This document shows positions 42,860 to 50,094 of a stretch of DNA of 64,000 bases, one piece after another. The notes beneath the pieces were generated by a model that made no database searches, was not told where the DNA came from, and was given only the letters and a program-made list of their open reading frames with translations. Source of the stretch: Brevundimonas sp. SGAir0440 (GTDB lineage: Bacteria > Pseudomonadota > Alphaproteobacteria > Caulobacterales > Caulobacteraceae). The position numbers and the translations under genes are program-made. Each line of letters opens with the position of its first letter. Position 1 is the stretch's first letter. The DNA is taken from positions 2,480,001 to 2,544,000 of the forward strand of contig NZ_CP039435.1 of assembly GCF_005484585.1 (NCBI RefSeq), written 5' to 3'.

Positions 42860-45568
42860 TCAGGCCGTCAGGCGGCTCAGCGCAGCCTGATAGTTGGCCA
42901 GCTGCGTCTGCTGGTAGGCGGTCGAGGAACCGTTGCCGGTCTGGGTGTTGGTTATGCCGCCGGTCGATGGCGCGAGGGCGCGGTAGGAGGACCGGACCGC
43001 CGTCATCGCCTGGGCCAGCGAATCGATGGCCGCCTTGATCGAGGCCGGATCGTTCAGGTTCAGCTTGTTCGACAGGTTCAGCCCATAGGTCTTGATCGCG
43101 TCCTTGTCCGGCTTCACCGGACCGACGAAGCCGGGCGTCAGACCCAGCGCGCCCAGGGCGTCCTTGCCGATCGCCCCAGCGGAGATGACGGCGCCGTCCT
43201 TGTTGGCCGCCGTCTTGATTTCCAGGCGCTGGACAATGGGTTTGGCCTTCAGGTCGGTGATGACCTTGGCTTCCAACTGGCGTCCAGAGGCGGCGTTGAT
43301 CTTCTTGGCCAGGCTTTCCAGCGTGTCCTTGGCGTCGATGGTCACAGTCACGGCGCGGCCGCCGGCGGCGGGGCTGATCGAAAACTGATCGCCGACGCGG
43401 GCCGAGGTGGCGACGGTCAGCAGCTTGGAATCCGCCTGCATGATCTGGCCCTGGGGCAGGCCGAGGCGGTCGAGCACGCTGGCCCCGCCCGCTGCGAAGC
43501 TCAGGCTGGTCGGCCTGGCCTGATCGCCGTCCGCGCGCCAGGTTCGGTTCGATTGAACCTGGCCGGTGGCCAGATCGATCTGGGCCAGATAGCCGGATGT
43601 GGGGTCGTCCTTACCGGCGCCTTCCGCCCGGTTCGTGCCGGTAATCCAGACTTTTCCGTGCTTGATGGCGACGTCGGCGGCGGAGTCCGCGCCCGCCCCG
43701 CCAAAATAGGTCAGCCGGTCGTTTGCCGAGGCCTGAAGGTCCGTCGACAAGGTGGCGATGAAGACGTCGCTGCCGCCGGCATGGGCGTTGGTCATCGTGG
43801 CGATATCGAGGGCGGTGTTCTCGGTATGGCCCGTCACGACGACCTTGCCGTTCTCGACCGATATGCCGGCGATCGCGCCGCTGGCGTAGCCAAGGTCACG
43901 CGTCGAAGCCAGGCTCGGTACGCCCTCGGCATCCAGGGTGAAGCGGCGCACGACCGCCTTCCCGTTTTCGACGCCCGCCGTGTAGAGGTCGTTTCCCGAC
44001 ACCGTCATGGCCTGAACGGAGTCGTCGCCGCTGGTGCCGAACTGCACGGTCGCGACGTTCACGCCCACGTCCGGGCCATTGATCTTTATCGGCTTTTCCT
44101 GGAAGGCCTGAAGATAGGAATCCCAGCCGCCCAGGGCCGCATTGCCCGGCATGGCCGATTTCGACCGGCCGGCGACATAGACCATGCCGTCGGCGCCGAA
44201 GCGAACCTCGGTCGCCTCATCGGCCGCCTTGGCGCCGCGCCGCTGGGTCCACAACTCTTGGCCCGAACTGTCGAACACAGAGACGAAACTGTCGGCCACG
44301 GCCGCGTTGTCGCCGCTCTTGCCGGGTTCCAGCGCCCCGGTCACCGATCCGGCCAGGGCGACCCGGCCGTCGTCGTCGATAGCGATGGAGAAGCCGTTGG
44401 CGCTGGAGGCGGCGCCGAGCAGCTTCGTCTGCATCAGATTGCCGGCGGAATCATATTTCATCAGGGCGACATCGCGCGCGCCCTTGATCGGTTGACTGGC
44501 GTCGCCCGCCGTCAGTTCGGCGACGACCCAGACGGAACCGTCCGGCGCCACCGCGCTGGCCTTAACCGCGGCGACCCCGTCGGGAAGGTCGGCGTGCCCC
44601 ACCCTGCCCTCGACCCAGAACGGATCGTCGACGCCCTGCTGGGCGGCCGGCGCCGCGCCGCCTTCGGCCTGGAACTTCAGCAGTTGGCCCGCCGTGCCGG
44701 TCTTGCCGACCCCTTGCGTCACATAGACGGCGTCGGAGGTGTCGACGGCCTGGAAGCTGATGGCCTCGCCGGTCCCGCCATTGACCTTCAACGCCCACCG
44801 ATCCGGTCCGGCCGGCAGGGTGATGGTCTTGGTTCCGCTCTTGACCGTCTTCGGCTCGGCCGGGATCAACTGAGCGCTGATGCGCGTCGCGACGCCCGCG
44901 TCCTCCAGCTTGCCGTTCATATAGGCGGTGACATTGGCCAACGATCGACCGGTCGCGCCCATCTCGGACAGGTCCATGGCGATCGCCTGCTCCCCAGCCG
45001 CCGTCTTGACGGTCACGGAGAATTTCACGTCGCCCTCGAACGCCTTGACCGAGGCGGTGGGGTCGCCGTCGTGGATGGGGGTGGTGACGAAGCTGGTCGG
45101 CGCCCGTTCCAGCGCATAGGTGCTTTTGACCGACGTCTGGGCCACGCCCTGCACCAGCCGCATGTCTTCGAAACTGGCGGTGCTCAAATAGGTCGACAGT
45201 TCGGCCAGGCCTTCGCTGAACCGCTTAGACACCAGAGCGGCTTCCGACGCGCTCAGCCCCTTGACGCCGGCACGGTCGGCCAGAGCGCCCAGCGTGTTCA
45301 GGCCCTGATACAGGGCGAACATCTTGCGGTAGTCGGTCGACGCGCCGGCCAGATCCAGGCTGACATTGCTCTCGTCGATCAGGCGGCGGCCGCCCAGAGC
45401 CGCGCGGACCAGATCGCTGGCCTTCGCCGGTGTCGCCGTGGAGGACCAGGGGGCCGTCGGCTGGGTCTTCTTGGTTTTGACGGCCGCGCTGGTGGTCGTG
45501 GCGGCGCCTGACGACGACGTCCCCGTCGTCGTTCCGAAAAGACCCAGCAGATAGCTGTTGTTGATCAT
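42860..45568 (-). CDS. FlaEY-like flagellar filament protein with beta-propeller repeats
   Basis: This 902-residue protein follows the flagellin genes on the same strand. It has no signal peptide. An N-terminal Ser/Thr-rich tail leads to a region with helices (about residues 60-150). A long central part has SBBP-type beta-propeller repeats, seen in segments like VALMKYDSAGNLMQTKLLG, FSIAIDDDGRVALAGSVTG and VWVVAELTAGD. Near the C-terminus, AVTVTIDAKDTLESLAKKIN resembles the flagellin hook IN motif. This layout and location match the Caulobacter FlaEY protein, needed for filament formation, so export through the flagellar system is likely. The assignment rests on context and domain pattern. 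Confidence 0.7.
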   Translation of the reverse strand: MINNSYLLGLFGTTTGTSSSGAATTTSAAVKTKKTQPTAPWSSTATPAKASDLVRAALGGRRLIDESNVSLDLAGASTDYRKMFALYQGLNTLGALADRAGVKGLSASEAALVSKRFSEGLAELSTYLSTASFEDMRLVQGVAQTSVKSTYALERAPTSFVTTPIHDGDPTASVKAFEGDVKFSVTVKTAAGEQAIAMDLSEMGATGRSLANVTAYMNGKLEDAGVATRISAQLIPAEPKTVKSGTKTITLPAGPDRWALKVNGGTGEAISFQAVDTSDAVYVTQGVGKTGTAGQLLKFQAEGGAAPAAQQGVDDPFWVEGRVGHADLPDGVAAVKASAVAPDGSVWVVAELTAGDASQPIKGARDVALMKYDSAGNLMQTKLLGAASSANGFSIAIDDDGRVALAGSVTGALEPGKSGDNAAVADSFVSVFDSSGQELWTQRRGAKAADEATEVRFGADGMVYVAGRSKSAMPGNAALGGWDSYLQAFQEKPIKINGPDVGVNVATVQFGTSGDDSVQAMTVSGNDLYTAGVENGKAVVRRFTLDAEGVPSLASTRDLGYASGAIAGISVENGKVVVTGHTENTALDIATMTNAHAGGSDVFIATLSTDLQASANDRLTYFGGAGADSAADVAIKHGKVWITGTNRAEGAGKDDPTSGYLAQIDLATGQVQSNRTWRADGDQARPTSLSFAAGGASVLDRLGLPQGQIMQADSKLLTVATSARVGDQFSISPAAGGRAVTVTIDAKDTLESLAKKINAASGRQLEAKVITDLKAKPIVQRLEIKTAANKDGAVISAGAIGKDALGALGLTPGFVGPVKPDKDAIKTYGLNLSNKLNLNDPASIKAAIDSLAQAMTAVRSSYRALAPSTGGITNTQTGNGSSTAYQQTQLANYQAALSRLTA

Positions 45569-45628: not shown

Positions 45629-46507
45629 TCAGCCCTTGAACAGCGACAGGATGACCTGCGGCGCCTGGTTGGCGATCGACAGGGCCTGAACGCCGAGTTG
45701 CTGCTGGACCTGCAGGGCCTGAAGGCGGGCGCTTTCCTTAGCCAGGTCCGCGTCGACCAGATTGCCGATGCCGGCCTCCAGCGCGTCCGACAGCTTGCCG
45801 ACATAGGTGGTGTGGCGCTCGATCTGCTTGGACTGGGCGCCCAGTTCGGAAAGACGAGAACTCGAGGTTGCGATGGCGTTGTTGATCCGGTTCAGCGCGG
45901 CTTTGGCATCGGACTCAACCAATAAGCTTGGCGCGTCAACAGCGGGCGTAGCCGAAGCGTCGGCCGCAAGCCCCAAGCCTGAAAGTGTCAGGTTTTGACG
46001 CTTCAGCTGGATATTCTCCTGGCCGTCCGCACTGGCGATAAAATTCAAGTCCCCGAGCGGCGCAGGAGGTGTCGCGCCGTCCGTACGCCCTGCGAGAATG
46101 TTCTCACCATCAAAAATGGCGTTGTCTGCAAAAGACTGGATCGACAACAGAAGCGATTGAAACTCCTGGTCATACGATTTGCGAGTCGCATCGCTGGCGC
46201 TCGGGTCCGCCGCTGCGGTCGCCTTCTGCTTCAGCTCCAGAAGAATGTCCGAGATTTGCTCGCCGGCCGCCAGCGACACGTCGGCGATGGACGTCGCGCG
46301 CTTCAGGCTGGTGGTGACAGCTTCGAGCGATCCCCGGTCCGCGCGCTGCCCCTGAGCCACCGCCCAGACCGCGGCGTTGTCGCGCGCGCCCTGAACCTTC
46401 AGCCCCGTGTTCACCCGGCTCTGCGTCGCCGCCAACTGGTCGTTGGTGCGGTTCAGATTCTGCAGGGCGATCATCGCCGAGGTGTTGGTGTGGATGCTGG
46501 TGGTCAT
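45629..46507 (-). CDS. Divergent flagellin (FljJ-like), flagellin D
   Basis: This 292-residue flagellin has conserved N- and C-terminal coiled-coil domains (IALQNLNRTNDQLAATQSRV and GVQALSIANQAPQVILSLF). Compared with flagellins A-C here it lacks the shared middle. It has its own segment with ELKQKATAAADPS and a D1 region, and it is related to the 29-kDa Caulobacter flagellin FljJ. Filament position in Caulobacter depends on flagellin type, so this may form the hook-proximal part of the filament. It lacks the hairpin leader of the other flagellins and instead has a CtrA-GAnTC-CtrA promoter. The ATG is at 46507. Confidence 0.85.
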   Translation of the reverse strand: MTTSIHTNTSAMIALQNLNRTNDQLAATQSRVNTGLKVQGARDNAAVWAVAQGQRADRGSLEAVTTSLKRATSIADVSLAAGEQISDILLELKQKATAAADPSASDATRKSYDQEFQSLLLSIQSFADNAIFDGENILAGRTDGATPPAPLGDLNFIASADGQENIQLKRQNLTLSGLGLAADASATPAVDAPSLLVESDAKAALNRINNAIATSSSRLSELGAQSKQIERHTTYVGKLSDALEAGIGNLVDADLAKESARLQALQVQQQLGVQALSIANQAPQVILSLFKG

Positions 46508-46543
46508 GGCTTCAAGCCCCCGGACGTTCTGTGGGCTACAGCA

Positions 46544-46572
46544 TTAACCATGAGTCGTAATCACATGGTTAA
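46544..46572 (-). promoter_or_regulatory. Paired CtrA sites enclosing a GAnTC methylation site
   Basis: TTAACCATG (46544-46552) and CATGGTTAA (46564-46572) form a perfect inverted pair of CtrA half-sites with an 11-bp spacer. The minus-strand motif TTAA-CCATGTG-ATTA is close to the full TTAA-N7-TTAA consensus. The spacer starts with AGTC, so GAGTC spans 46552-46556; this is a CcrM methylation site. The element lies about 37-65 bp upstream of flagellin D. It would give cell-cycle control of that flagellin. Regulation is inferred, not shown. Confidence 0.75.
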
Positions 46573-46642: not shown

Positions 46643-46924
46643 TCAGACGGCGGTATCGACCAGACGACCGCCGCGATAGGTCGGGTCGCTGTTCAGCTTT
46701 TCGACATCCTCGCGCGGCAACTGGCGGATCACCTCCCCCGTCACCCGGTCCAGGACCTTGTAGACGAAGCGGTTGTCGCCAACGGCCTCGATGGTGAGGC
46801 GAAAGCGGCTGGCGTCGTGGTTGTCGTTTTTCGCTACCGGCGCGGGCGTCGCCGGCTGCACGGCGATCGGAGCGACGGGAGAAATCTGAGGTACGCTTAC
46901 TGATCTCGCGACATTGTCTGTCAT
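46643..46924 (-). CDS. flaG: FlaG family protein
   Basis: This 93-residue protein has an FlaG core: RFRLTIEAVGDNRFVYKVLD then RVTGEVIRQLPREDVEKL, which matches the consensus phrase TGEVIRQIP. The N-terminal 35 residues are a flexible Pro/Ala-rich tail. FlaG proteins sit in flagellin loci and affect filament length. The start is uncertain: the ATG at 46924 is used, while a GTG at 46948 would add 8 residues; neither has an ideal ribosome-binding site. It lies between flagellin C (after a terminator) and flagellin D. Confidence 0.88.
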   Translation of the reverse strand: MTDNVARSVSVPQISPVAPIAVQPATPAPVAKNDNHDASRFRLTIEAVGDNRFVYKVLDRVTGEVIRQLPREDVEKLNSDPTYRGGRLVDTAV

Positions 46925-46972
46925 GGCTCCACGCGCAGGTCGGCCCACGCCCTCTAGAGAAACAAGCGATCA

Positions 46973-47008: not shown

Positions 47009-47830
47009 TTAGCGGAACAGCCCCAGCAAGATCTGGCTGGACGAGTTGGCGATCGACAGCGCCTGCACGCCAAGCTGTTGCTTGGTTTGCAAGGCGGTCA
47101 GTCGGGCGCTTTCCTTGGCCAGGTCGGCGTCCACCAGGTTGCCGACGCCGGTTTCCAACGAGTCTTGCAGCTTATTGACGAAGGTCATCTGACGATCCAG
47201 CGACTTCGACTTCGTGCCGAGATCGGCAAGGGTCGAAGCGAAGCTGCTGATGGCCTTATCGACGTTAGCGGCCGTGCGATCTGCCGTGGTCGCCAGATTG
47301 TAGGCGCCAGCACCCGTCGCTACCGTAGGATCGGTTGCTGCCGTGCTGATTGCTTTCAGGCTGAACTTGCCGCCAGAGGTGTTCGTCGTCACCTCGATTG
47401 CAGCGGCATTGGCGGCAAACAGATTGACGCCGTCGAACTTGGCGCCGGTAAGCGCCGAGCTGATTTCGGACAGGATCGCCGAGAAATCGGCGTTCAGCTT
47501 ATTGGCCGTATCGCTGCCCGCCGTTGCATCCTGAATCGAAACAGCGAGGCTCTTCAGTTCGTTCAGGGCGCTGGTCACCGTATCGCCGGCCGCCAGAGCG
47601 ACGTCGACGATGGATTGACCGCGTTGAAGCGACTGACGCACCGCATCCTGAGCGCCCATTTCTGCACGCTGGGAGGTGGCGATGGCGAAGATGGCGCCGT
47701 TGTCCTTGGCCGAAGAGACTTTCAGGCCGGTGTTTACGCGGCTTTGAGTGGTCTCCAGCGCCTTGTTGGTCGCATTCAGGGTTTGCAGCGCGACGAGGGC
47801 GCCGCCGTTGGTATTGATGCTATTAGCCAT
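47009..47830 (-). CDS. Flagellin C
   Basis: This 273-residue flagellin has an N-terminal D0/D1 region (INTNGGALVALQTLNATNKA) and a C-terminal D0 (LSIANSSSQILLGLFR). The middle region is short, rich in Ala, Thr and Ser, and surface-exposed in filaments. The first 97 residues match those of flagellin B except at residue 39 (Ser against Ala), and the C-terminal 80 are also nearly the same. A GGACAGCCAAA ribosome-binding region precedes the ATG at 47830. A conserved twin-hairpin leader lies upstream. It is one of the structural filament subunits secreted by the flagellar type III system. Confidence 0.95.
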   Translation of the reverse strand: MANSINTNGGALVALQTLNATNKALETTQSRVNTGLKVSSAKDNGAIFAIATSQRAEMGAQDAVRQSLQRGQSIVDVALAAGDTVTSALNELKSLAVSIQDATAGSDTANKLNADFSAILSEISSALTGAKFDGVNLFAANAAAIEVTTNTSGGKFSLKAISTAATDPTVATGAGAYNLATTADRTAANVDKAISSFASTLADLGTKSKSLDRQMTFVNKLQDSLETGVGNLVDADLAKESARLTALQTKQQLGVQALSIANSSSQILLGLFR

Positions 47831-47864
47831 TTTGGCTGTCCTTCTTCATTTCATAAAGGGCCGA

Positions 47865-47894
47865 CGGCGTTTTGCCGAAGGGAGCATTTTACTC
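47865..47894 (-). ncRNA. Twin A-loop hairpins in flagellin C leader
   Basis: Read on the minus strand, GAGTAAAATGCTC (47882-47894) and CGGCAAAACGCCG (47865-47877) are two adjacent 4-bp hairpins with A-rich 5-nt loops. The first has one G-U closing pair. They start about 64 nt and end about 35 nt before the flagellin C start codon. The same pair occurs in the leaders of flagellins A and B. A role as a target for a post-transcriptional regulator such as FlbT/FlaF is inferred. Confidence 0.7.
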
Positions 47895-47909
47895 GGGGAT
47901 AGAAAGATG

Positions 47910-47929
47910 GGCGGGGCCGGAACCCCGCC
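47910..47929 (-). terminator. GC-rich stem-loop after flagellin B
   Basis: A 7-bp stem GGCGGGG/CCCCGCC with a 6-nt loop lies 7 bp after the flagellin B stop codon (minus strand). It is followed by CATCTTTCT. It is probably a terminator or attenuator between flagellins B and C; the T tract is weak, so read-through is possible. Confidence 0.65.
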
Positions 47930-47936
47930 GGTTTTA

Positions 47937-48830
47937 TTAGCGGAACAGGCTCAACAGGATGGAGCTGGACGAGTTGGCGATCGACAGCGCCTGCACGCCA
48001 AGCTGTTGCTTGGTTTGCAGGGCGGTCAGCTTGGCGCTTTCCTTGGCCAGGTCGGCGTCCACCAGATTGCCCACGCCGGATTCCAGCGAGTCTTGCAGCT
48101 TGTTGACAAAGGTCATCTGACGATCCAGCGACTTCGACTTCGTACCGAGGTCGGCAAGGGTCGAAGCGAAGCTGTTGATGGCCGTCTCGACGTTGAACGC
48201 CGTGTAGGCAGCCTTTTTGTCGGCATAGTCGGCATCAGCTGTCCAGGCGCTGCCCGTTACTGCGCCGCCGAACAACAGGCTTGAACCAACCGACGCCACG
48301 GCGGCCGATCCCGTCGCGTCACCTCTCAGGAAGAACTTGCCACTGGACGTGTTCGTCGTGACCGACACGCCAGTTGCGCCTGCTGCGATGGCGTCGAAAA
48401 GATTGACACCATCGAATTTCGCTCCACCCAGAGCCGAGTGAATTTCCTTCACGACAGCTTCGAAGTCCGCGACCAGCTTTTTACCGGTTTCGCTGAAGTC
48501 GGTAGGTGTAGCCGCGTTTCCGCGATCATCTTGAATCGCGACAGCGAGGCTCTTCAGTTCGTTCAGGGCGCTGGTCACCGTATCGCCGGCCGCCAGAGCA
48601 ACGTCGACGATGGATTGACCGCGTTGAAGCGACTGACGCACCGCATCCTGAGCGCCCATTTCTGCACGCTGGGAGGTGGCGATAGCGAAGATGGCGCCAT
48701 TGTCCTTGGCTGAAGCGACTTTCAGGCCGGTGTTTACGCGGCTTTGAGTGGTCTCCAGCGCCTTATTGGTCGCATTCAGGGTTTGCAGCGCGACCAGGGC
48801 GCCGCCGTTGGTATTGATGCTATTAGCCAT
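47937..48830 (-). CDS. Flagellin B
   Basis: This 297-residue flagellin has D0/D1 ends almost identical to flagellin C (N-terminal 97 residues differ only at residue 39) and a longer, different middle region (about residues 98-218) with Ala-, Gly-, Thr- and Ser-rich stretches such as ATGVSVTTNTSSGKF. The middle would be the exposed surface of the filament. The start at 48830 follows the conserved leader with twin hairpins. Upstream are a CtrA-type site and several palindromes, so this is probably an independent transcription unit. It is exported by the flagellar type III system. Confidence 0.95.
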   Translation of the reverse strand: MANSINTNGGALVALQTLNATNKALETTQSRVNTGLKVASAKDNGAIFAIATSQRAEMGAQDAVRQSLQRGQSIVDVALAAGDTVTSALNELKSLAVAIQDDRGNAATPTDFSETGKKLVADFEAVVKEIHSALGGAKFDGVNLFDAIAAGATGVSVTTNTSSGKFFLRGDATGSAAVASVGSSLLFGGAVTGSAWTADADYADKKAAYTAFNVETAINSFASTLADLGTKSKSLDRQMTFVNKLQDSLESGVGNLVDADLAKESAKLTALQTKQQLGVQALSIANSSSSILLSLFR

Positions 48831-48864
48831 TTTGGCTGTCCTTCTTCATTTCGTAAAGGGCCGA

Positions 48865-48894
48865 CGGCGTTTTGCCGAAGGGAGCATTTTGCTC
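48865..48894 (-). ncRNA. Twin A-loop hairpins in flagellin B leader
   Basis: On the minus strand, GAGCAAAATGCTC (48882-48894) and CGGCAAAACGCCG (48865-48877) form two perfect 4-bp stem hairpins with AAAAT and AAAAC loops, separated by CCTT. They end 34 nt before the start codon. The pair is shared with flagellins A and C. The leader is nearly the same as that of flagellin C for about 65 bp. A regulatory role on mRNA is inferred. Confidence 0.72.
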
Positions 48895-48961
48895 GGTCTG
48901 ATCGGAAAATTTTTCCGAGTGTCATGTTTGGACCCTAGGGGTGTCCAAATCGTTGTTCTGC

Positions 48962-48980
48962 ATGGTTAATCGTCGATAAA
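48962..48980 (-). promoter_or_regulatory. CtrA-type site upstream of flagellin B
   Basis: The plus-strand sequence TTAA-TCGTCGA-TAAA (48966-48980) matches the CtrA consensus TTAA-N7-TTAA at 7 of 8 positions. It is joined to ATGG, so TTAACCAT reads on the minus strand. It lies about 135 bp upstream of flagellin B. Between it and the hairpin leader are a 15-bp palindrome CGGAAAATTTTTCCG (48903-48917) and an inverted repeat TTTGGAC/GTCCAAA (48927-48949). Confidence 0.65.
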
Positions 48981-49066
48981 CCTCCTGTGCGGCTCGGCGT
49001 GGTCCGCCGACGTTTCGAAACAAGGCCTGGATTGTTGCGGCACACCCGGCAAAATCGACCCAGCGA

Positions 49067-50002
49067 TCAGTTGCGGAACAGGCTCATCAGGATTTGGCTG
49101 GACGAGTTGGCGATCGACAAGGCCTGAACCCCCAGCTGCTGCTTGGTTTGCAACGCGGTCAGCTTGGCGCTTTCCTTGGCCAGATCGGCATCGACCAGAT
49201 TGCCGATGCCGGTTTCCAAGGAATCTTGAAACTTGTTGACGAACGTCAACTGGCGATCCAGCGACTTCGACTTGGTGCCGAGATCCGCAAGCGTGGACGA
49301 GAAGGACGTTATCGCCGCCTCGACATTGGTCACAGAGTAATCATCGAGAGCAGTGGGCGCAGCGCCGGTCGTCGCGTTCGCCTTGGCCGCCCAAGCCCCC
49401 GAGGCCTGGTTGAAGGTTCCCGCCGCGCCGGTGGTTGCCGCCGTTGAGCCGAAAGCAAGGCCTGCGGCCGCCGCCGTATCCGACGTTGACTTCAGGGTAA
49501 AGGTGTTGTTGGCCGCACCCGTATTGGTCGTGACCTTGAGGTCATTGACCTGTGTCTTGAAAACATTCACGCCGTCGAAGTTGGCGTTGGCCAAGGCAGA
49601 GTGGATTTCCTTCACGATGGCTTCGAAATCGGCGACCAACTTCTTGCCGCTCTCGCCCAAGCCCGTGACGGCGCCGGCGGCGTCGTAGGTTTTCGGAGCG
49701 TCAGCCAAGGCGACGGCGATGCTCTTGAGTTCGTTCAACCCGGCCGTCACTGTATCGCCGGCTGCCAAGGCGACATCGACGATGGACTGGCCACGTTGCA
49801 GCGACTGACGCACAGCGTCTTGAGCGCCCATCTCGGCGCGTTGGCTCGTTGCGATGGCGTAGATCGCGCCGTTGTCCTTGGCCGAGGCCACTTTCAGGCC
49901 CGTCGAGACACGGTTTTGCGTGCGCTCCAACAGAGCGTTGGTCGCATTGAGATTTTGCAGCGCGACAGCGGCGCCGTAGTTCGTATTGATGCTCGTAGCC
50001 AT
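49067..50002 (-). CDS. Flagellin A
   Basis: This 311-residue flagellin has the usual D0/D1 ends (ALQNLNATNALLERTQNRV and LSIANSSSQILMSLF) and a distinct middle region rich in Ala, Thr and Gly, including VTTNTGAANNTFTLKS. It is the first flagellin in transcription order. The ATG at 50002 is used; the extra MNRKAK codons upstream are not favoured because the GGAAAGCC region serves as ribosome-binding site. Upstream are a canonical sigma-54 promoter and the twin hairpin leader. It diverges less from B and C in its ends than in the middle. Secreted by the flagellar type III system. Confidence 0.95.
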   Translation of the reverse strand: MATSINTNYGAAVALQNLNATNALLERTQNRVSTGLKVASAKDNGAIYAIATSQRAEMGAQDAVRQSLQRGQSIVDVALAAGDTVTAGLNELKSIAVALADAPKTYDAAGAVTGLGESGKKLVADFEAIVKEIHSALANANFDGVNVFKTQVNDLKVTTNTGAANNTFTLKSTSDTAAAAGLAFGSTAATTGAAGTFNQASGAWAAKANATTGAAPTALDDYSVTNVEAAITSFSSTLADLGTKSKSLDRQLTFVNKFQDSLETGIGNLVDADLAKESAKLTALQTKQQLGVQALSIANSSSQILMSLFRN

Positions 50003-50034
50003 TTTGGCTTTCCTGTTCACTTCGTGTGATGTCC

Positions 50035-50066
50035 GACGCCATTTTAGCGTCAGGAGCGTTTTGCTC
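50035..50066 (-). ncRNA. Twin A-loop hairpins in flagellin A leader
   Basis: On the minus strand, GAGC-AAAAC-GCTC (50054-50066) and GACGC-TAAAATG-GCGTC (50035-50051) form two hairpins with A-rich loops. They begin about 2 nt downstream of the start predicted from the sigma-54 element. They end 32 nt before the start codon. Stem sequences differ from those of the B and C leaders while the loops stay AAAA-like, which supports selection on structure. Confidence 0.72.
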
Positions 50067-50079
50067 GATCTTCAGGAGA

Positions 50080-50094
50080 GCAAGGGCGGGGCCA
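50080..50094 (-). promoter_or_regulatory. Sigma-54 (RpoN) -24/-12 promoter of flagellin A
   Basis: On the minus strand, TGGCCC-CGCCC-TTGC matches the consensus TGGCAC-N5-TTGC with the GG and GC dinucleotides exactly 10 bp apart. Transcription should start near 50068, giving a leader of about 66 nt that begins at the first hairpin. Flagellin genes of Caulobacterales are typical sigma-54/FlbD targets. A GAGTC methylation site lies further upstream at 50202-50206. The rest of the 50003-50220 gap shows nothing else recognisable. Confidence 0.8.

Follow-up and report, generated by a model that had tools for sequence, protein, structure and literature searches.

The operators of CsrA and RsmA consist of several hairpins, one of which lies over the ribosome site, and carry GGA in their loops. 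In Campylobacter, CsrA acts on flagellin mRNA, and FlaF/FlbT have been named as a possible analogue (PMC4894983). In Caulobacter, FlbT acts on the 5′ untranslated region (UTR) of flagellin mRNA (PMC4347634; PMC3930126). A role of this protein in flagellin regulation has been on record since 2000 or earlier, and a 2015 review, in its passages on FlbT, leaves the RNA motif blank and lists the mechanism as unresolved (PMC4347634). Here we describe a candidate docking site for FlbT in a stretch of 64,000 nucleotides (nt) of the Brevundimonas sp. SGAir0440 genome (contig NZ_CP039435.1, positions 2,480,001 to 2,544,000), referred to below as the window. The element is an array of short hairpins with A loops in the leaders of three of the four flagellin genes of the window. 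In our opinion, it is probably a multi-site translational operator of structural-flagellin mRNA leaders, whose A loops FlbT would read with the help of an FljJ-type flagellin, thereby holding the last hairpin closed.

The four flagellin genes all lie on the minus strand, and each encodes a protein with the Pfam domains Flagellin_N and Flagellin_C. Flagellins A (49067–50002), B (47937–48830) and C (47009–47830) are of the structural type, A and B also by their position in the tree and C also by its 81% identity to B. Flagellin D (45629–46507) is of the FljJ type, a regulatory paralogue by orthology. The leaders of A, B and C (start codons at 50002, 48830 and 47830) contain three A-loop hairpins each, HP1, HP2 and HP3, likewise on the minus strand. 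HP1 conforms to GAG[C/U]-AAAA[C/U]-GCUC with a loop that begins at −60, and reads GAGC-AAAAC-GCUC in A (50054–50066), GAGC-AAAAU-GCUC in B (48882–48894) and GAGU-AAAAU-GCUC in C (47882–47894). HP2, with a loop that begins at −43, is CGGC-AAAAC-GCCG in B (48865–48877) and C (47865–47877) and CUGACGCU-AAAAU-GGCGUCGG in A (50033–50053). HP3 is AGCC-AAAAU-GGCU in all three leaders and holds the start codon inside the hairpin (49997–50009 in A, 48825–48837 in B, 47825–47837 in C). An earlier note, made from the letters of this stretch, had described two consecutive A-loop hairpins in each of these leaders, ending about 32–35 nt before the start codon; both the pair of hairpins and the distance hold in A, B and C, and the array is larger than the note had it, HP3 having been overlooked.

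The hairpins were located by the hairpin scan, and single-sequence folding supports HP1–HP3 of A, HP1 and HP3 of B, and HP2 and HP3 of C. The predicted pair probabilities of HP3 in the three leaders are 0.99–1.0 for the inner pairs and 0.90–0.92 for the outer pair (0.92–1.0 over the whole hairpin in A). When the whole source genome (3.15 Mb) was searched with a covariance model of HP1 and HP2, only the leaders of A, B and C matched at E < 1e-4 (1.6e-6 to 2.6e-5, the last being that of A at genome positions 2530032–2530070); the next match had E = 0.25, and this search gave no convincing non-flagellin target in the genome. A separate observation concerns flagellin B, in which the 3′ arm of HP2 is able to pair with early codons instead, within the first 30 nt of the coding region; this alternative predicted fold could be part of a switch. 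Since B and C are close paralogues, they amount to nearly one observation within the window, and the case rests on the comparative set.

This set comprises 226 flagellin leaders from Caulobacterales loci, 164 of them structural and 62 FljJ-type. The strict definition of a hairpin required a loop of 5 nt, A[AG]AAN, on a stem of 3 base pairs (bp) or more; a relaxed rule admitted loops of 4–6 nt. Strict hairpins number 2.11 per structural leader, compared with 0.08 per FljJ-type leader and 0.06 in dinucleotide shuffles of the structural leaders. Deduplication left 74 structural and 37 FljJ-type leaders at first, and 73 and 38 after the tree, because leader L081_+5631, structural by score, then went to the FljJ type. 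Under the relaxed rule, at least two A-loop hairpins are present in 65 of the 73 deduplicated structural leaders, as against 1.0% of shuffles and none of the 38 FljJ-type leaders, D included (exactly one is found in 8 of these 38). Within this Caulobacterales set, the array is present in nearly all structural-flagellin leaders and is confined to them. The loop is nearly constant, with the consensus C-ARAAY-G: among the 346 loops of the A[AG]AAN scan, 194 are AAAAT, 95 AAAAC, 20 AGAAT, 17 AAAAA and 20 others. The stems vary and include GAGC/GCUC, GGGC/GCCC, GGAC/GUCC, GCC/GGC, GUC/GAC and GGC/GCC, among others.

The second line of evidence is selection at the RNA level. In a test blind to pairing, the A[AG]AAN word that came first or last within a preset range of positions was taken from the 74 deduplicated leaders, and the flanking arms were checked for complementarity. 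Stems of 3 bp flank 51 of 61 candidates for HP1, 55 of 70 for HP2 and 29 of 59 for HP3; when the 3′ arms are exchanged at random between leaders, the mean counts are 28, 25 and 13, respectively, and the observed ones are not attained in any of 1000 permutations. In alignment A1, which holds 49 of the 52 two-hairpin leaders, both sides change in 10 of the 12 pairs, and covariation is 0.42 compared with 0.18 in shuffles, dropping to 0.07–0.15 when the alignment is slid by 1–3 columns. It should be noted that the A1 leaders were picked from the 74 for the pairing of both stems, so that the percentage of paired cells in A1 is inflated; the unselected test is the arm permutation. The earlier note had read the second hairpin of A, different in stem sequence and alike in shape, as a sign of selection on structure, and had named a lack of covariation among leaders as what would speak against it. 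Covariation is present, the loop being kept while the stems change.

The hairpins are also strand-specific. There are 138 ARAAY hairpin loops in the sense orientation and none of the reverse complement, and among single stem cells that depart from Watson-Crick pairing, G-U outnumbers A-C by 21 to 7 (P 0.013). Together, these two biases argue for an RNA element rather than a DNA palindrome. They bear directly on the idea that the repeats are DNA sites, for example the ftr sites of the sigma-54 activator FlbD, and that it is merely the symmetry of these sites that produces hairpins in the RNA. Such sites would be at home here, the flagellin promoters being of the sigma-54 type and downstream ftr sites being known for flaN/flbG (a reference title in PMC3096577). 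However, the array is retained in 20 of the 22 deduplicated structural leaders that have no sigma-54 element, and HP3 keeps to the position of the start codon or of the Shine-Dalgarno sequence. We reject the DNA-site explanation on the strand bias and the G-U preference and regard it as highly improbable.

The third line of evidence is the position of the array relative to the predicted 5′ end and the ribosome site. Flagellin A has a −24/−12 element of the sigma-54 type, TGGCCCCGCCCTTGC (50080–50094, minus strand; score 12.5 of 14), which predicts an mRNA start at about 50068, 2 nt before HP1. Elements scoring at least 11 are found in 51 of the 74 deduplicated structural leaders, with 4.1 expected from shuffles. 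The distance from the C of the −12 element to the first base of the HP1 stem could be measured in 44 leaders and is 13–14 nt in 37 of them, so that HP1 stands at the predicted mRNA 5′ end or directly beside it. Within the window the element was found for A only; B and C have none nearby and keep the array nonetheless. At the other end of the array, a hairpin on the ribosome site is present in 54 of the 74 structural leaders and takes three versions: around the start codon, as in the window (21 leaders); CC-ARAAN-GG over or beside the Shine-Dalgarno sequence (20); and a CCU..AGG hairpin containing that sequence (13). One Hyphomonadaceae locus (L081) has Shine-Dalgarno and start-codon versions together in one leader.

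An array that repeats one loop motif several times, beginning at the 5′ end and finishing on the ribosome site, has the layout of a multi-site translational operator. One may argue that no dedicated protein need be involved: the 5′-terminal hairpin would shield the mRNA from 5′-end decay, and the last hairpin, by pairing with itself at the start codon or the Shine-Dalgarno sequence, would keep the translation rate low. This argument can draw on HP1 at the predicted 5′ end and on the start-codon HP3, which folds alone with pair probabilities of at least 0.90. Stability alone, however, needs no constant ARAAY loop above changing stems, and the Shine-Dalgarno versions, with predicted energies of −0.8 to −1.4 kcal/mol, are too weak to act alone. 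Moreover, the absence of the array from FljJ-type genes and its association with FlbT, described below, would be left unexplained. For an element of this layout, we consider self-sufficient hairpins unlikely, though not negligibly so, and regard an operator read by a protein as the probable explanation.

The array is associated with FlbT across Alphaproteobacteria. The source genome has one FlbT gene (PF07378, E = 4.2e-44), adjoined downstream by a FlaF-like open reading frame (FlaF having been named by eye). A class sample of 192 alphaproteobacterial genomes contained FlbT in 67 and a flagellin match in at least 93, among the matches listed, and leaders were available for 50 genomes, 25 with FlbT and 25 without. 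With loops of 4–6 nt allowed, 16 of the 25 genomes with FlbT and 1 of the 25 without have one or more leaders that carry at least two hairpins, a comparison partly confounded by lineage (see below); under a strict class rule (5-nt loop, C-G or U-G closing pair), the array is found in 8 and 0 genomes, respectively. In this survey, no start was obtained for 8 of 90 loci, and the strand chosen was probably wrong for several loci. Several of the genomes with FlbT have the array on one of two flagellins and none on the other. The array of genome G238 consists of GGGC-AAAAU-GCCC, GGAGC-AAAAU-GCUCC and UCC-AGAAU-GGA. A flagellin leader of G149, from another family, has GGAC-AAAAU-GUCC and GGC-AAAAU-GCC together with a start-codon hairpin, AGCC-AAAAU-GGCU, identical to that of the window, and its array is preceded by a sigma-54-like TGGCACGGGCATTGC. 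The two-hairpin model R1, at E up to 0.1, matched 11 of the 192 genomes, several of these loci being read as chance; this model is too narrow for distant families.

Alternatively, the reader of the A loops could be FlaF, an Hfq-like protein or some further RNA-binding factor, with FlbT acting indirectly. The blank left in the 2015 review for the FlbT motif and mechanism agrees with that, as does the predicted FlbT N-terminal domain, which, taken alone, has no match with Z of 2 or more among solved structures. The association with FlbT, in conjunction with the published link between FlbT and the flagellin 5′ UTR, favours FlbT instead. For FlaF, the described role is that of a secretion chaperone for flagellin (PMC7591256), which makes FlbT the better candidate ligand of the two. 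A different reader of the loops is, in our view, improbable.

Flagellin D supplies a contrast within the same gene cluster. A maximum-likelihood tree of 108 flagellins places D inside the FljJ-type clade with support of 100/99. The identity of D to B is 47%, and 49% is quoted for FljJ in PMC7591256; on the strength of these values and of clade members from Caulobacter species, we equate the D clade with FljJ, the C. crescentus FljJ itself not being in the tree set. According to the account in that paper, C. crescentus FljJ is a regulatory flagellin that, unlike other flagellins, interacts with FlbT, and translational repression of the structural flagellins needs FljJ and ceases upon its export (PMC7591256). 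The leader of D has no A-loop hairpin in the hairpin scan and no sigma-54 element in the promoter scan; TTAACCAT sites are present instead. Counted on either strand, this 8-mer occurs in 34 of 38 FljJ-type leaders compared with 2 of 73 structural ones, and the sigma-54 element in 4 of 38 compared with 51 of 73. We take TTAACCAT to resemble a CtrA half-site, and its distribution suggests that FljJ-type genes have a promoter of the CtrA type. The earlier view that D lacks the hairpins and is regulated differently from A, B and C is supported by these sequence features. The leader of D also contains an inverted pair, GTTAACCATG...CATGGTTAA, at about 46520–46565 on the minus strand.

We propose a modular operator that would work as follows. 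The sigma-54 transcript would begin with one C-ARAAY-G hairpin and continue directly with a second (sometimes with more), and these would be combined with a hairpin on the ribosome site. The latter, in most cases with a loop of the same type, would contain the start codon, as in the window, or the Shine-Dalgarno sequence. FlbT, aided by an FljJ-type flagellin (here D), would read the A loops and occupy the array, and the bound complex would keep the last hairpin closed, so that ribosomes could not start and the mRNA would be degraded. With the opening of the hook-basal body and the export of D/FljJ, the complex would release the mRNA, and A, B and C would be translated. D, needed first, would carry no operator for that reason. 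What the sequences show is the structure of the array, its conservation and strand specificity, its place at the predicted 5′ end and the ribosome site, its confinement to structural flagellins and its association with FlbT; that FlbT binds, that it does so cooperatively, and that translation and mRNA decay are affected is what we infer from this.

A number of observations weigh against this proposal. A ribosome-site hairpin of any of the three versions is absent from 20 of the 74 structural leaders. Within the window, HP2 of B and HP1 of C lose to alternative pairings in single-sequence folds (probabilities of 0.04 and 0.05), both being found by the hairpin scan and matched by the genome model. 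The array is absent from 9 of the 25 sampled genomes with FlbT. The association with FlbT is partly confounded by lineage, since the genomes without FlbT mostly have other flagellin types, and at least 4 of the 29 leaders on that side (L126, L131, L141 and L153) look misplaced and are still counted. In addition, Brucella FlbT has been proposed to be an activator (PMC4347634).

A possible molecular basis for loop recognition is a likeness between FlbT and CsrA, which should be regarded as a lead and not a result. The first 45 residues of FlbT, with the consensus LKLSLKPGEKFVLNGAVVQNGDRR..LVLQNKASVLREKDIM, align end to end with alphaproteobacterial CsrA (..ASVLRREIYERI), and five strands are predicted in this N-terminal part. 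A comparison of 55 FlbT with 14 CsrA sequences by hhalign gives a weak match over 41 columns (score 21.2, P 4.6e-4, probability 33%), with probabilities of 12% and 6% for smaller alignments; none of 300 column shuffles reaches the score (best 18.1), and the reversed profile scores 8.1. The CsrA model PF02599 matches none of four FlbT proteins (hmmscan, E up to 10). Foldseek found no match with E under 2 for the full FlbT model (predicted local distance difference test 82, built from 18 similar sequences), and CsrA chains are not among the listed fold-search matches of two AlphaFold models, a search of monomers that a domain-swapped dimer could escape. By sequence, nothing relevant to FlbT was found among solved structures, the best match being ribosomal protein L14 (E 0.037). 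Four-helix bundles of many kinds are similar to the C-terminal bundle of FlbT (Z 10.0 for NiSOD, 8.2 for FliS and about 8 for sensor domains), so that a likeness to FliS in particular does not follow. Among 57 genomes of the class sample, the 8 with CsrA and the 19 with FlbT do not overlap (Fisher P 0.042, lineage uncontrolled), as if one replaced the other.

We offer a broader hypothesis tentatively, as a possibility that we would not favour at present: that FlbT combines a CsrA-like RNA-binding domain with a FliS-like four-helix bundle that senses flagellin, reads the tandem C-ARAAY-G hairpins, and replaces the CsrA/FliW switch in Alphaproteobacteria. FlbT would then sense completion of the flagellum directly, via bound FljJ flagellin, with the array as its operator, seated on the start codon or the Shine-Dalgarno sequence.

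Other features adjoin the flagellin genes. Upstream of flagellin B, between A and the array of B (48895–48960), there are two more inverted repeats, TTTGGACACCCCTAGGGTCCAAA and TCGGAAAAATTTTCCGA, and no sigma-54 element; they are possibly a terminator or a processing site after A. B and the array of C are separated by a strong hairpin rich in GC, GGCGGGGTTCCGGCCCCGCC, that lacks a clear T run (47906–47930). Two minus-strand features also adjoin the flagellins: a FlaG match too weak to reach its cut-off (46643–46948) and a protein of 902 amino acids without a Pfam match (42860–45568).

The array matters first as a candidate for the docking site of FlbT. Its constant loop, its defined layout and the negative control within the cluster (D/FljJ) make the question of the FlbT motif simply testable. 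It also offers an explanation of how the regulatory flagellin may be made first while the filament subunits are held back, and it can be used for finding FlbT targets across Alphaproteobacteria.

As to described RNA elements, no Rfam family reaches its gathering score in nine array-bearing loci. The flg-Rhizobiales RNA (RF01736), which we had taken to be a flagellin-leader motif, has no match in the window between 45000 and 51000 at E up to 1. That assumption was not borne out, and identity with this family was rejected, because the two matches that it has below threshold fall on the start of a gene of the flagellar rod/hook type (by Pfam for L123, by eye for L122), not of a flagellin. The likeness consists in a three-hairpin RNA in alphaproteobacterial flagellar genes (PMC3765529). 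Targets of ANTAR proteins similarly present tandem stem-loops, two in number, to a protein (PMC4347634); they act in antitermination, whereas the array ends on the ribosome site of its gene. We found no published work that describes the array, judging by title and abstract in a search that did not extend to the primary FlbT papers. Anderson and Gober reportedly discussed predicted structures of the fljK leader in 2000, and part of the anatomy may thus be in print for fljK alone. Like the array, operators of CsrA and RsmA present a single loop motif on a number of short hairpins and place the final one on the ribosome site. They differ in the loop, which is GGA there and ARAAY here (the loops sought in the scan, A[AG]AAN, cannot contain GGA), and in the protein, the source genome having no PF02599 match and hence no CsrA. 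The FlbT-dependent fljK 5′ UTR of Caulobacter crescentus is likewise a structural-flagellin leader of the FlbT lineage under post-transcriptional control tied to completion of the hook-basal body. It is one leader, whose motif the same passages of the 2015 review leave unresolved (PMC4347634), whereas the array described here brings a loop consensus, a tandem layout and a hairpin on the start codon or Shine-Dalgarno sequence across many species.

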